From Dyella jiangningensis (GTDB lineage Bacteria > Pseudomonadota > Gammaproteobacteria > Xanthomonadales > Rhodanobacteraceae), in NCBI RefSeq assembly GCF_003264855.1, contig NZ_NFZS01000006.1:62001-126000 (forward strand): 64,000 bases of DNA, in the 5' to 3' direction. Below the pieces are notes generated by a model. That model was given only the letters and a program-made list of their open reading frames with translations, was not told the origin of the DNA and did not search any database. Positions 34,498 through 38,561 of the stretch are shown piece after piece. Positions within the stretch are counted from its first letter, which is position 1; every line of letters starts with the position of its first letter. A program made the position numbers and the translations under genes.

Positions 34498-37371
34498 TTA
34501 CTTGGCCGGCACCGCCTTGCCGTCACCGTCGATCACCTCGATCTCGCCCAGTTTGAGCGCGCGCACGGGCTGCTCGATCTTCTTGAGATCGCCGACGATC
34601 ACCCAGGTCAGCGCGGAAGGCTTGATGATTTCCTTCAGCGCCTGCTCGGCATCGGACTGATGGATCGCCTCGGTGCGTGCCTTGAGCGTCTGCACGTAAT
34701 CGTCCGGACGGCCGTACTGCACGATCTCGGTCATCGCGCCGAGTACTTCCGAGCTGGTCTCGAAGCTGCCCGGCAGGCCGCGCACGTTGGAGTCCTTGAT
34801 CTTGTCCACCTCCTGCTCGGTCAGCGGACGCGCGCCCACCACTTCGCTGGCTTCCTTGAACACCTCGTTGGCGGACTCGGCGGTCTTGTCGGTCTGCACC
34901 GGGGCATACATCAGGAACGGACGCTGGCCGACCGCATCGCGCATGAAGCTGAAGGCGCCATAGGCCCAGCGCTTGTCTTCGCGCAGGTTCATGTTGAGGC
35001 GCGAGGTGAAGCTGCCGCCGAACGCACCATTGGCCACATCGATCGCCAGCTCGTTCGGCGCCTTGCTCGAGGGCGCGAGCAGACCGGCCAGGATCAGCGA
35101 TTGCGGCGCATCCGGCTTGTCGATGAGGAACACGCGCGGCTTGGCCTGGACGGCCACCGTGGCGATGTTCTTCTTCGGCAGCGGGCTGGACGGCGCCGTC
35201 CAGTCGCCGAAGGCGGCATCGAGCTGCGGGATGATCTGCTGCAGCGTGGTATCGCCGGCGACGAGGATCTTCACGTTGTCCGGGCGCAGCCAGTCACGCT
35301 GGAACGCCGCGAGGTCGGATGCCTGCATCGACTTGATCGCCGCCTCCGTGCCCGAACCGGTGAACGGGATGCCGTAAGCGTGGTTGGCGCCGTACAGCAG
35401 CGGCGGCAAGGTGCGCAGCGCCAGCGCGGTGGGCTGCGTCTTCTCCTGCGCGATGCCGGCCAGCCACTGCCCGCGCACGCGCTCGATGTCCTCGCTCTTG
35501 AAGGCCGGGTTGCGCACGATGTCGGCGAACAGCGCCAGCGATGGCTGCAACTGGTCGTTCAACGCATTGAGCGCCGCCGAGCACGAGTCGAGGCCGCAGC
35601 CGATGCGCGTGATCGCGCCCAGGCGCTGCTTGCGCTTGGCCACTTCCACCGAGTCGAGATCCTTGGTGCTCTCGTTCATCAGCGTGGTGGTGAAGCTGGC
35701 GGTGCCGAGCTTGCGACCCTGGTCGGCGGCGTAGCCCGCATTGAACAGCAACTGCACGTGCGTCACCGGCACCGTGTGGCGCTGCGCCAGCACGACTTCG
35801 ATGCCGTTCTTGAGCTTGCCGCGCTCCAGCGCCGGGAAACTCAGGTCAGGGAAGGTGGCGACCTTGGGCACGCCCTGGCTGCGGTCGAGCTGGCTCTTGG
35901 CCACGCTGAAGTCCTGCTTGGCAGGCATCTTCGGCGCCGGCTTGCCATCAACCGGGCCGAGCGCAACCACCTTGGCGTCTTCCTGCTCGCCGTTGAAGTC
36001 GTCACCGGCAGGCAGCACGGTGAGCAGGTAGTCGCCGTGGCTCAGCCACTTGTCGGAAGCAGCCTTGACGCTGGCCTGCGTGGCGGCGTCGGCGCGCTGC
36101 AGGTCCTTCTTGTAGGCGCCCGGATCACCGCGATAGACCTGACCCTCGGCCAGGATCACCGCCTTGCCGCCGAAGCCACCGACCTTCTCCAGCCCGCGCA
36201 CGAAGCCGGCGCGGTTGCCGATCTTGGCGCGCTCCAGTTCGTCGGCGTTGGGACCGTCGGCGAGGAATTTCTTCAGCTCGTCGTTGATCGCCGCCTCGAC
36301 CTTGGCCGGGTCCACGCCATCCTTCACGTCGGCCTGGATCTGGAACTGGCTGGCCAACGCAAACGGCGAAATGCTCGCCGAGACGTCATCGACCAGCTTG
36401 TCCTGGTAAACCAGGCGCTGGTACAGGCGTGAGGTCTTGCCGCCGCCGAGCACGGTGGAGGCAAGGTCGAGCTGGATCGCGTCGTCCGTGCCCAGCTGCG
36501 GCACCACCCAGGTGCGGTAGATGCGCGGCTGCGCCACGTGATCGTGCTGAATGCCACGCGTGGACTTGGTGAGCGGCGTGATCCACGCCTGCTGGCGCGG
36601 CACCGGCGGGCCGGCCGGGATGTCGCCGAAATACTTCTCGGCCTTGGCCTTCGCCTCCGCGACGGTGATGTCGCCGGCCAGCACGAGGGTGGTGTTGGCG
36701 GCGCCGTAATAGTCGTGGAACCACTGCTTCACGTCGGCCAGCGAAGCCGCGTTGAGGTCGGCCATCGAACCGATGGTGTCGTGCTGGTACGGATGGTTGC
36801 CCGGATACGTGTTGGACAGGATGTTCTGGTCCACGCGGCCGTACGGGCGGTTCTCACCCTGGCGCTTCTCGTTCTGCACCACGCCGCGCTGCGTGTCGAG
36901 CTCCTTCTGGCCGATGGCGCCCAGCAGGTGGCCCATGCGATCCGATTCCATCCACAGCGCCATATCCAGTGCGGTGGTCGGTACCGTTTCGAAGTAATTG
37001 GTGCGGTCGAACCAGGTGGTGCCGTTCATGTCCGTGGCACCGGCCAGCTCGAACGGCTGGAAGTAGGTGCCCTTGTGGTTCTCCGAGCCGGAGAACATCA
37101 GGTGCTCGAACAGATGCGCGAAGCCGGTCTTGCCCTTGGGCTCGTCAGCCGAACCCACGTGATACCAGATGCTCACCGCCACTACGGGCGCCTTGTGGTC
37201 CTCATGCACCACCACGGTCAGGCCGTTGGGCAAGGTGAAGCGGGTATAGGCGATGTCGGGGACGGCGGCGGCGGACGATTCCACCGCGGCATGGGGAGCA
37301 GCGATCGCCGGCAGGCCGGCGGAGACGCTGAGCAACCCTGCGACGAGCAGGGCGAGGGGCTTTCTTGCCAT
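34498..37371 (-). CDS. exported two-domain M16 zinc metalloprotease
   Basis: A 957-residue pitrilysin/PqqL-type protease. Signal peptide about 1-25. The inverted zinc motif HLFEH has H86, E89 and H90, with the distal glutamate E168 in VVQNEKRQ. Residues to about 470 form the active M16 half, and the rest is the inactive second half (FPALERGKLKNGIEVVLAQRHTVP onward) in one chain. It probably degrades peptides in the periplasm. ATG 37371 has AGGAG seven bases upstream; a GTG one codon earlier is too close. The gene is divergent from the sigma-54 small-protein locus. Confidence 0.92.
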   Translation of the reverse strand: MARKPLALLVAGLLSVSAGLPAIAAPHAAVESSAAAVPDIAYTRFTLPNGLTVVVHEDHKAPVVAVSIWYHVGSADEPKGKTGFAHLFEHLMFSGSENHKGTYFQPFELAGATDMNGTTWFDRTNYFETVPTTALDMALWMESDRMGHLLGAIGQKELDTQRGVVQNEKRQGENRPYGRVDQNILSNTYPGNHPYQHDTIGSMADLNAASLADVKQWFHDYYGAANTTLVLAGDITVAEAKAKAEKYFGDIPAGPPVPRQQAWITPLTKSTRGIQHDHVAQPRIYRTWVVPQLGTDDAIQLDLASTVLGGGKTSRLYQRLVYQDKLVDDVSASISPFALASQFQIQADVKDGVDPAKVEAAINDELKKFLADGPNADELERAKIGNRAGFVRGLEKVGGFGGKAVILAEGQVYRGDPGAYKKDLQRADAATQASVKAASDKWLSHGDYLLTVLPAGDDFNGEQEDAKVVALGPVDGKPAPKMPAKQDFSVAKSQLDRSQGVPKVATFPDLSFPALERGKLKNGIEVVLAQRHTVPVTHVQLLFNAGYAADQGRKLGTASFTTTLMNESTKDLDSVEVAKRKQRLGAITRIGCGLDSCSAALNALNDQLQPSLALFADIVRNPAFKSEDIERVRGQWLAGIAQEKTQPTALALRTLPPLLYGANHAYGIPFTGSGTEAAIKSMQASDLAAFQRDWLRPDNVKILVAGDTTLQQIIPQLDAAFGDWTAPSSPLPKKNIATVAVQAKPRVFLIDKPDAPQSLILAGLLAPSSKAPNELAIDVANGAFGGSFTSRLNMNLREDKRWAYGAFSFMRDAVGQRPFLMYAPVQTDKTAESANEVFKEASEVVGARPLTEQEVDKIKDSNVRGLPGSFETSSEVLGAMTEIVQYGRPDDYVQTLKARTEAIHQSDAEQALKEIIKPSALTWVIVGDLKKIEQPVRALKLGEIEVIDGDGKAVPAK

Positions 37372-37463: not shown

Positions 37464-37531
37464 CCGGACCGTTGTCCGGACGACTGTCCGTCCGGCTGTC
37501 CGGCCGCGCCCGGTCGCTGTCCGCGGACAGC
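37464..37531. promoter_or_regulatory. cluster of TGTCCG/CGGACA sites (putative sigma-54 activator sites)
   Basis: TGTCCG occurs four times (37473, 37485, 37497, 37518) with reverse partners: CCGGAC-CGTT-GTCCGG (37464-37479), CGGAC-GACT-GTCCG (37477-37490) and the perfect 16-bp palindrome GCTGTCCGCGGACAGC (37516-37531). The palindrome is centred about 100 bases before the expected start of the sigma-54 transcript, the normal place for enhancer-binding-protein sites. Confidence 0.65.
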
Positions 37532-37595
37532 CATCGTGCGCAGAAGGCTTTGCGAAATTTCCAACAAACACAGTCACTTGGAGGTGAATGAAGGG

Positions 37596-37614
37596 TTGGC
37601 ACGGCGCTTGCCAT
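37596..37614 (+). promoter_or_regulatory. sigma-54 (RpoN) promoter
   Basis: TTGGCACG-GCGC-TTGCCAT matches the RpoN consensus (TGGCACG-N4-TTGC) at every invariant base, with GG at 37598-37599 and GC at 37610-37611 at the required spacing. Transcription would start near 37623, leaving a leader of about 35 bases before the small gene. Confidence 0.8.
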
Positions 37615-37657
37615 ATCTACCGTGCAGGACTTACCCACTTTCATCGGAGACATGATC

Positions 37658-37861
37658 ATGAAATTCGAAGCCTTGATGCTGCGCGGCCTGTTCGTTGCCT
37701 GCCTGCTGGTTTGTGGACTCGTGCTGGGTGCCATGGTGAACGCTTCGCCGGACGCCATCCGTCTCGCCGCTGCCGGCAGCGCCGGTCAGCTGATCGCTAC
37801 CCCGGTTGCCTGCGCGCTCCCGCCCGATGGCGTGGTCTGCCCGCGCGCCAACAACGGCTGA
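37658..37861 (+). CDS. 67-residue membrane or secreted peptide under sigma-54 control
   Basis: The predicted product has a short start ([10 protein letters not shown]), one hydrophobic stretch ([19 protein letters not shown]) and a small tail with two cysteines in [10 protein letters not shown] that could pair. The hydrophobic part could be a signal peptide or an anchor. ATG 37658 lies seven bases after GGAGA; an ATG two codons earlier is only one base from it. I recognise no family. A strong sigma-54 promoter and upstream sites precede it. The trmL gene follows 52 bases downstream. Confidence 0.65.
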
Positions 37862-37913
37862 GCAGGGACGCTCACCGTTTGGCGGGTCACCGGAGAGACC
37901 CGATAATGGCTGG

Positions 37914-38378
37914 ATGCTGCACGTCATACTTTTCCGACCAGAAATACCGCCGAACACCGGCAACGTGATCAGGCTGTGCGCCAACACCGGCGCCACGTTG
38001 CACCTGATCCGCCCCCTGGGATTCGAGCTGGACGATGCCCGCCTGCGCCGCGCAGGCCTGGACTACCACGAATACGCGCAACTGGCCGTGCATGACGACC
38101 TCGCCAGCTGCCTCGAGGGCATCGGCCAGCCACGTGTGTTCGCCTTCTCCACCCGCGGCCGTATCGCCCATGTCGATGCCCGCTTCGCCGACGGCGACGC
38201 CCTCCTGTTCGGCTGCGAAACCGCCGGCCTGCCCGGCGAGGTGCTCGACGCCATCCCCGAAGCGCAACGCCTGCGCCTGCCGATGCGGCCGAACAGCCGC
38301 AGCCTGAATCTCTCCAACACCGTCGCCGTGGCGGTGTATGAGGCCTGGCGGCAGCTGGGTTTCACCGGCGCCGCCTGA
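37914..38378 (+). CDS. trmL: tRNA (cytidine/uridine-34 2'-O)-methyltransferase TrmL
   Basis: A 154-residue SPOUT-class enzyme that methylates the wobble ribose of tRNA-Leu. SPOUT motifs are [37 protein letters not shown] and [28 protein letters not shown], which form the knotted SAM site. Length matches the family. The start at [10 protein letters not shown] was chosen over longer frames. Confidence 0.95.
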
Positions 38379-38388
38379 CCGCTTCCCC

Positions 38389-38511
38389 TGTAGGAGCGCA
38401 CCCAGTGCGCGAAAAGCCAATGGAGCGGTGATGCGGAAAGGTGATATTCCCGGGACAACGTTTCATGGCCCCGCCCTGGTGCCGTGATCGCGCACTGGGT
38501 GCGCTCCTACA
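38389..38511. repeat. paired REP-like elements (REPIN)
   Basis: A forward TGTAGGAGCGCACCCAGTGC copy with the GAAAAGCCAATGGAGCGGTG linker, and an inverted TCGCGCACTGGGTGCGCTCC copy 80 bases later, between trmL and ubiJ. Confidence 0.82.
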
Positions 38512-38561
38512 ACCGGCACATCACGGATGGGCCAACCGCCCTCACCCGCTACAATCGCGGC

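Follow-up and report, generated by a model that had tools for sequence, protein, structure and literature searches.

A conserved sigma-54 switch before a small, predicted one-helix membrane protein in Dyella jiangningensis and its probable link to an exporter-operon regulator

The peptide A locus and its switch

We analyzed a stretch of 64,000 nucleotides from Dyella jiangningensis, the whole of which is referred to here as the window. A gene for a 67-residue protein, peptide A, lies in the window between a divergent M16 peptidase gene and a TrmL-like RNA methylase gene, and is preceded by a sigma-54 promoter, a cluster of TGTCCG words and a palindrome. Table 1 lists these features together with an operon and a regulator gene found elsewhere in the same genome.

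Table 1. Coordinates of the features at the peptide A locus and of the linked exporter operon
Feature	Position	Strand	Evidence or remark
M16 peptidase gene, divergent	34498..37371	-	Conserved neighbour
TGTCCG half-site	37473..37478	+	45 bp 5' of 12-mer palindrome; position seldom conserved in relatives
TGTCCG half-site	37485..37490	+	33 bp 5' of palindrome; relatives often have TGTCC/GTCCG words at 32-33 bp
TGTCCG half-site	37497..37502	+	21 bp 5' of palindrome; invariant throughout the genus (20 loci)
Perfect 16-bp palindrome GCTGTCCGCGGACAGC	37516..37531	.	Putative main activator site; core GTCCGCGGAC in 76/77 named loci
Spacer, 12-mer palindrome to TGGCAC	37530..37596	+	67 bp, length constant
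Sigma-54 -24/-12 promoter TTGGCACGGCGCTTGC	37596..37611	+	Seen in sequence; conserved among relatives
Ribosome-binding site GGAG	37646..37649	+	CATCGGAGA(C/T)ATGATC in 19/20 loci of the genus
Peptide A gene, 67-residue single-helix membrane protein (predicted), C52 and C61 in tail	37658..37861	+	Homologues, dN/dS, helix model
SpoU-family RNA methylase gene (TrmL-like)	37914..38378	+	SpoU_methylase E 1.2e-29; may share the sigma-54 transcript
Candidate regulator gene, NtrC-type	G000:C1:949940-951277		
ABC exporter operon with its own sigma-54 response regulator, kinase adjoining	L096:1728-17781 (G000:C1)		

The original prediction had described a sigma-54 promoter at exact -24/-12 spacing, four TGTCCG copies with a perfect 16-bp palindrome, and a 67-residue open frame with a ribosome site, and all three descriptions were borne out. 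The promoter has the -24 GG and -12 GC at the fixed spacing, and its elements are conserved. The plus-strand TGTCCG copies start at 37473, 37485, 37497 and 37518, and the last of them forms the palindrome with a reverse copy at 37524. The open frame consists of 67 codons and a stop. The promoter word TGGCACGNNNNTTGC has its sole exact match in the window at this promoter; with up to two mismatches, 37 matches were found in the window against 40.9 in shuffles, indicating that the promoter word by itself is not significant. TGTCCG was not enriched across the whole window either (38 observed, 46.9 expected). The cluster at the locus holds five copies in 57 bp, and the maximum was three in 200 Markov-1 sequences of 64 kb each with the dinucleotide make-up of the window, which rules out a chance origin of the cluster. 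The promoter, the TGTCCG cluster, the palindrome and the 67-codon gene were thus confirmed as real and beyond chance.

From the sigma-54 consensus, transcription is predicted to start near 37623. When 45 spacers of relatives were pooled, the IHF consensus was found with four perfect and seven one-mismatch matches, against 0.12 and 2.3 in plain shuffles. Note that this scoring applies to the pool, and the spacer of the window has no separate score. An additional in-frame ATG occurs at 37652, two codons 5' of the conserved start and too near the ribosome site; the corresponding ATG is out of frame in one relative (L008).

Conservation of the switch was examined in two sets of genomes. In named genomes, a scan found 77 loci, 67 of type A and 10 of type B. 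They come from Dyella, Rhodanobacter, Frateuria, Luteibacter, Fulvimonas and Pinirhizobacter, together with a few MAGs that carry no label beyond Lysobacterales or Lysobacteraceae. The palindrome core GTCCGCGGAC was present within 420 bases upstream in 76 of the 77 loci, and together with the strict promoter at a gap of 66-70 bp in 71; the strict pair was missing in six. The other set comprised 61 genomes, namely the window's own genome and 60 relatives, and the strict palindrome-plus-promoter pattern occurred in 33 of the 37 genomes of the window's family and in none of the 24 from other families, with no match to the reversed control pattern in any of the 61. The search for a palindrome followed by a promoter, which the original prediction had proposed for related genomes, was therefore positive. 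The gap between the 12-mer palindrome and TGGCAC was counted in 30 loci, two of which were beyond the 300-base range examined; it measured 67 bp in 26 of the other 28 and 66 and 65 bp in the remaining two. A relaxed pattern (TGTCCG plus promoter) gave 19 matches in six genomes against 11 for the reversed control, so single matches of this kind are weak. Switch and gene are kept together across Dyella, Rhodanobacter, Frateuria, Luteibacter and their kin. The M16 gene, likewise described as divergent in the original prediction, is divergent in 62 of the 67 type A loci and missing in the other five.

Peptide A and its relatives

In a protein search of the 61 genomes, homologues of peptide A were found in 31, that is, in all 20 of the genus, in 11 of the other 17 of the family and in none of the 24 of other families. 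The closest named sequences were those of Dyella sp. EPa41 (100%) and D. jiangningensis (99%). The overall dN/dS of the gene was about 0.1; in the 190 pairs formed by the 20 genomes of the genus, the median was 0.09 for residues 1-26, 0.12 for residues 27-46 and 0 for the 12-residue Cys motif, indicating that the peptide A gene is coding and under purifying selection. A non-coding reading of the frame was ruled out by these ratios. The alignment of homologues advised in the original prediction, with 35 rows, showed a conserved frame and nine invariant residues (M1, E4, L8, L11, M26, C52, D57, G58 and C61). Two further genomes carry much diverged peptides that begin with MKTEL and lie 5' of the methylase gene. 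The one in G020 (profile E 5e-6) has two tail cysteines and is preceded by a palindrome core and promoter. The one in G023, recognised by eye, is free of cysteines and has a promoter with two TGTCCG words and no palindrome.

AlphaFold modelled residues 2-28 of peptide A as a confident helix (mean pLDDT of the whole, 66), and hydropathy supports this first helix; the tail was modelled with low confidence, with a possible short helix at residues 33-40. A known family was rejected for peptide A, as searches matched no Pfam family at E up to 1 and no NCBIfam model at E up to 0.01; an NCBIfam search with a paralogue B sequence was also without a match. A lipoprotein was rejected by eye, since an invariant lipobox Cys behind a signal peptide was not seen: some rows have Ser or Thr at position 15, which is preceded by charged residues. 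Peptide A probably stays in the membrane rather than being secreted, judging from its sequence, and export is possible because VNA/S and ISA/P could be signal-peptidase sites.

Shorter relatives accompany peptide A. Dyella nitratireducens and D. acidisoli have helix-only forms of 27-29 residues, and D. tabacisoli and three Luteibacter carry such forms in tandem with peptide A. Paralogue B is also shorter than A, with a conserved N-terminus (dN/dS 0.29 for residues 1-26; 17 loci, 136 pairs) and a variable, Ala-rich tail. Compared at the sequence level, the helix is the constant part of these peptides, and A and B would constitute a new small-protein family of one-helix inner-membrane proteins.

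The regulon and the candidate activator

Four exact copies of the 12-mer palindrome were found in the window's genome, and the promoter is correctly placed at two of them, before peptide A and before an operon on contig C1. With a looser core, paralogue B and a hydrolase join the switch targets; by eye, the hydrolase resembles a relative's protein that Pfam assigns to the S33/alpha-beta hydrolases. The C1 operon encodes an HlyD/RND-type periplasmic adaptor, an ABC ATPase, eight FtsX/MacB-type permeases (two called by Pfam scan and six by eye), a DUF885 protein and a response regulator, after which follow a small ORF and a kinase gene with HAMP and PAS domains. The adaptor, separate LolD/DarD-like ATPase and FtsX/MacB_PCD permeases resemble MacAB and DarBCD. 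The operon differs from both in having eight permease genes together with the DUF885 protein and its own sigma-54 regulator, and it scores under the DarC, DarD, MacA and MacB cut-offs. Specifically, the ATPase reached 256.8 bits against DarD (cut-off 375) and the adaptor 82.5 against DarC (cut-off 450), so that by these equivalog cut-offs it is not the darobactin exporter DarBCD; among the models shown, the only NCBIfam cut-off passed was that of the broad RND_mfp model, by the adaptor. PMC12316311 states sigma-54 control of FtsX-like permeases in general terms. No literature on this switch, regulon or peptide was recognised, in a coverage that takes in few subscription journals.

In relatives, the same switch was found before a DUF4440 protein, a 214-residue secreted protein without a Pfam match and S33-type hydrolases, and in one genome before a TolC-like protein named by eye. 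The DUF4440 and 214-residue proteins stand behind the switch in several Dyella (L102-L106). S33/alpha-beta hydrolase genes with palindrome core and sigma-54 promoter were seen at L237 (G000:C1:1189800-1192800), L107, L111 and L242-L244. Small secreted-looking proteins, some of them with multiple cysteines, were observed behind TGTCCG clusters and sigma-54-like promoters in genomes without peptide A (L249, L250, L259).

The regulator encoded in the C1 operon is the candidate activator. It carries a receiver, a Sigma54_activat and a Fis-type HTH_8 domain, the domain set of the NtrC family, and shares receiver, AAA+ and Fis-type HTH with AtoC-, GlrR- and PrsR-like regulators; it scored below the cut-off of each of the best 25 of 101 NCBIfam models. 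Its predicted site, TGTCCGCGGACA, has the form TGTC-N4-GACA. The GlrR site is TGTC-N10-GACA, and PilR binds TGTC repeats. The regulator was found in all 25 family genomes searched (of 37); identity was 80-94% in the 18 others with the peptide and 71-74% in the six that lack a strong peptide match, and its recognition helix, SRQALYRR, was identical in the 23 sequences read (of 25). Those six genomes, G027 among them, have a TGTCCG cluster and a sigma-54-like promoter before the adaptor gene; the palindrome core is present at this promoter in three, the other three have TGTCCG words only, and several of the adaptor promoters read TGGCAT. Orthologues with 64-70% identity occur in 11 of 24 genomes of other families. 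Operon regions were fetched for nine of these 11, with the adaptor promoter left unread in five; of the others, two had the palindrome, one a TGTCCG cluster only and one neither. In the two with the palindrome, which belong to another family, TGTCCGCGGACA precedes the adaptor and a promoter-like element follows 52-53 bp on, not 67, with its -12 off consensus.

The activators at loci L060 and L061 were rejected as general regulators, as they reached the thresholds in only 6 and 4 of the 25 genomes, and in 5 and 2 of the 19 peptide genomes. This comparison covered these two among the activators of the window's genome, which also include FleQ-, PilR- and NtrC-like ones and that at L058. Taken at the level of sequence, sigma-54 and the exporter-operon regulator very probably control peptide A, and cis-linkage and conservation suggest that the regulator binds TGTCCGCGGACA. 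The regulatory part is strong for a purely computational case. The dedicated enhancer-binding activator that the original prediction had placed on the TGTCCG sites of a small cysteine-bearing membrane peptide is thus well supported by the conserved sites, promoter and frame and by a candidate activator in an operon with the same sites. Its guess of envelope stress or signalling fits a regulon of exporter and kinase, and its mention of pili found no support in this analysis.

A kinase link, a proposed mechanism and its rivals

We compared the kinases encoded beside the regulator, reading the sequences and leaving out four further regulator loci without a kinase match. A short loop of the form W-P-[LF]-P-[QE] (WPLPQ-type), which follows the first helix of the N-terminal region, was present in all 19 genomes with peptide A and in none of the 13 others. 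This match may be a single coincidental event, because the peptide genomes may form one clade. The diverged peptide of G020 also counts against the loop link, since it has two tail cysteines and its kinase lacks a WPLPQ-type loop. On the basis of the co-occurrence, peptide A may inhibit its cognate kinase; that it acts on this kinase is a tentative proposal, which we put somewhat below even chances.

Such an action has a precedent in MgrB, which, according to PMC8404706, is a small helix protein of the PhoP regulon that inhibits the kinase PhoQ and requires two periplasmic cysteines. MgrB is described as a feedback inhibitor of PhoQ in PMC2789325. A version of MgrB cut down to its helix does not inhibit PhoQ. 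Peptide A resembles MgrB in being small and one-helix, in belonging to the regulon of the system it would control, and in having a conserved pair of tail cysteines that enclose Asp and Gly, as well as a polar Cys in the helix. An MgrB-like plan, namely a single helix, two conserved tail cysteines and a place in the kinase's regulon by shared sites, can thus be read from its sequence. No MgrB homology was detected, as no Pfam match was obtained at E up to 1 (and none to NCBIfam at E up to 0.01). Furthermore, peptide A belongs to a sigma-54 regulon, its kinase is linked to an ABC exporter and has a short periplasmic loop, and its family has natural helix-only forms, whereas the helix of MgrB alone is inactive on PhoQ. 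These forms count against a tail-based, MgrB-like action because they have no tail to use.

The reading we prefer is that peptide A regulates its own kinase or exporter from within the membrane and would be MgrB-like in action and not in ancestry. The kinase would sense a signal, probably membrane-active or peptide-like stress, and the phosphorylated NtrC-family regulator would bind TGTCCGCGGACA and turn on the exporter, the S33-type hydrolase and peptides A and B. Both peptides would remain membrane-bound and would target the kinase or the exporter, the most likely action being feedback by helix-helix contacts, to which peptide A would add a periplasmic tail closed by a C52-C61 disulfide. Sequence and conservation support the promoter, sites, gene, regulon and cis-link of the activator, and we infer the activator binding, the signal, and the topology, disulfide and target of peptide A. 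This overall explanation, with a sigma-54-induced peptide A, the exporter-operon regulator and feedback on kinase or exporter, is the best we have and is moderately probable; peptide A may serve the sensor as a built-in brake or assist the exporter. A narrower version, which we regard as doubtful, is an independently evolved MgrB-like brake, in which the one-helix family docks on the kinase at its WPLPQ loop and TM1, in a feedback loop with redox input. Peptide A would then have a Cys-x8-Cys periplasmic tail, B and the 27-29-residue forms would be reduced to the helix, and the kinase would govern an eight-permease, peptide-type exporter. The analysis names an undescribed family of small membrane proteins with a probable regulator, a binding site and a newly outlined sigma-54 regulon, and it makes a definite prediction, feedback on the exporter-linked kinase. 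The natural helix-only variants offer ready minimal versions for testing the tuning of a sensor or exporter by a single helix.

Other roles of the peptides were weighed against this reading. Peptides A and B could be substrates of the exporter, with a leader and a variable core; once cut behind the helix, they would leave the cell as signals or as antimicrobial peptides. The ATPase and adaptor do match the DarD and DarC export models, though below cut-off, B has a conserved N-terminus and a variable Ala-rich tail, and DUF885 and S33-type proteins belong to the regulon. However, the Cys motif of A is more conserved than its helix, with the linker at the highest of the three ratios, and is the opposite of hypervariable; the natural 27-29-residue forms are coreless, although they retain the switch or sit in tandem behind a shared one; no maturase was recognised by eye among the reading frames of the operon; and the exporter with a TGTCCG-type promoter is present in genomes without a detected peptide. 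We consider this unlikely. An action like that of AcrZ, in which A and B serve the FtsX/MacB permeases as accessory subunits or stabilisers and do not regulate the kinase, is suggested by their co-regulation with the permeases through shared sites and by their single helix and short tail; it is rather unlikely, given that the exporter occurs without detected peptides and that the kinase loop tracks the peptide.

As for control of the promoter, another enhancer-binding protein, for instance a PilR-like one, might drive it, with an incidental tie to the exporter operon. A PilR-like gene, named by eye, is present in the genome, and PilR sites contain TGTC, but the palindrome stands before an operon encoding its own activator, an arrangement shared by several genera of the family and two genomes from another, and this explanation seems very improbable. 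It is at least as improbable that the switch mainly serves the downstream trmL-like methylase, with the peptide as a leader ORF. The methylase gene follows directly in 67 of 67 type A loci, with its start about 10 bases past the peptide stop in Luteibacter, and the gap in the window contains no plus-strand terminator-like site. Paralogue B, on the other hand, has the same switch without trmL in 10 of 10 loci, and the residues of A are under strong purifying selection. Setting the target aside, the short Luteibacter gap and the lack of a plus-strand terminator-like site in the window make joint transcription of peptide A and the methylase likely, notwithstanding one sigma-70-like match between them (37879-37907). 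Beyond the 3' end of the methylase gene, positions 38389-38513 hold a roughly 24-base inverted repeat (TGTAGGAGCGCACCCAGTGCGCGA with its complement) that looks like a REP-type element; judging by translations, similar words seem to be present around the regulator locus as well.
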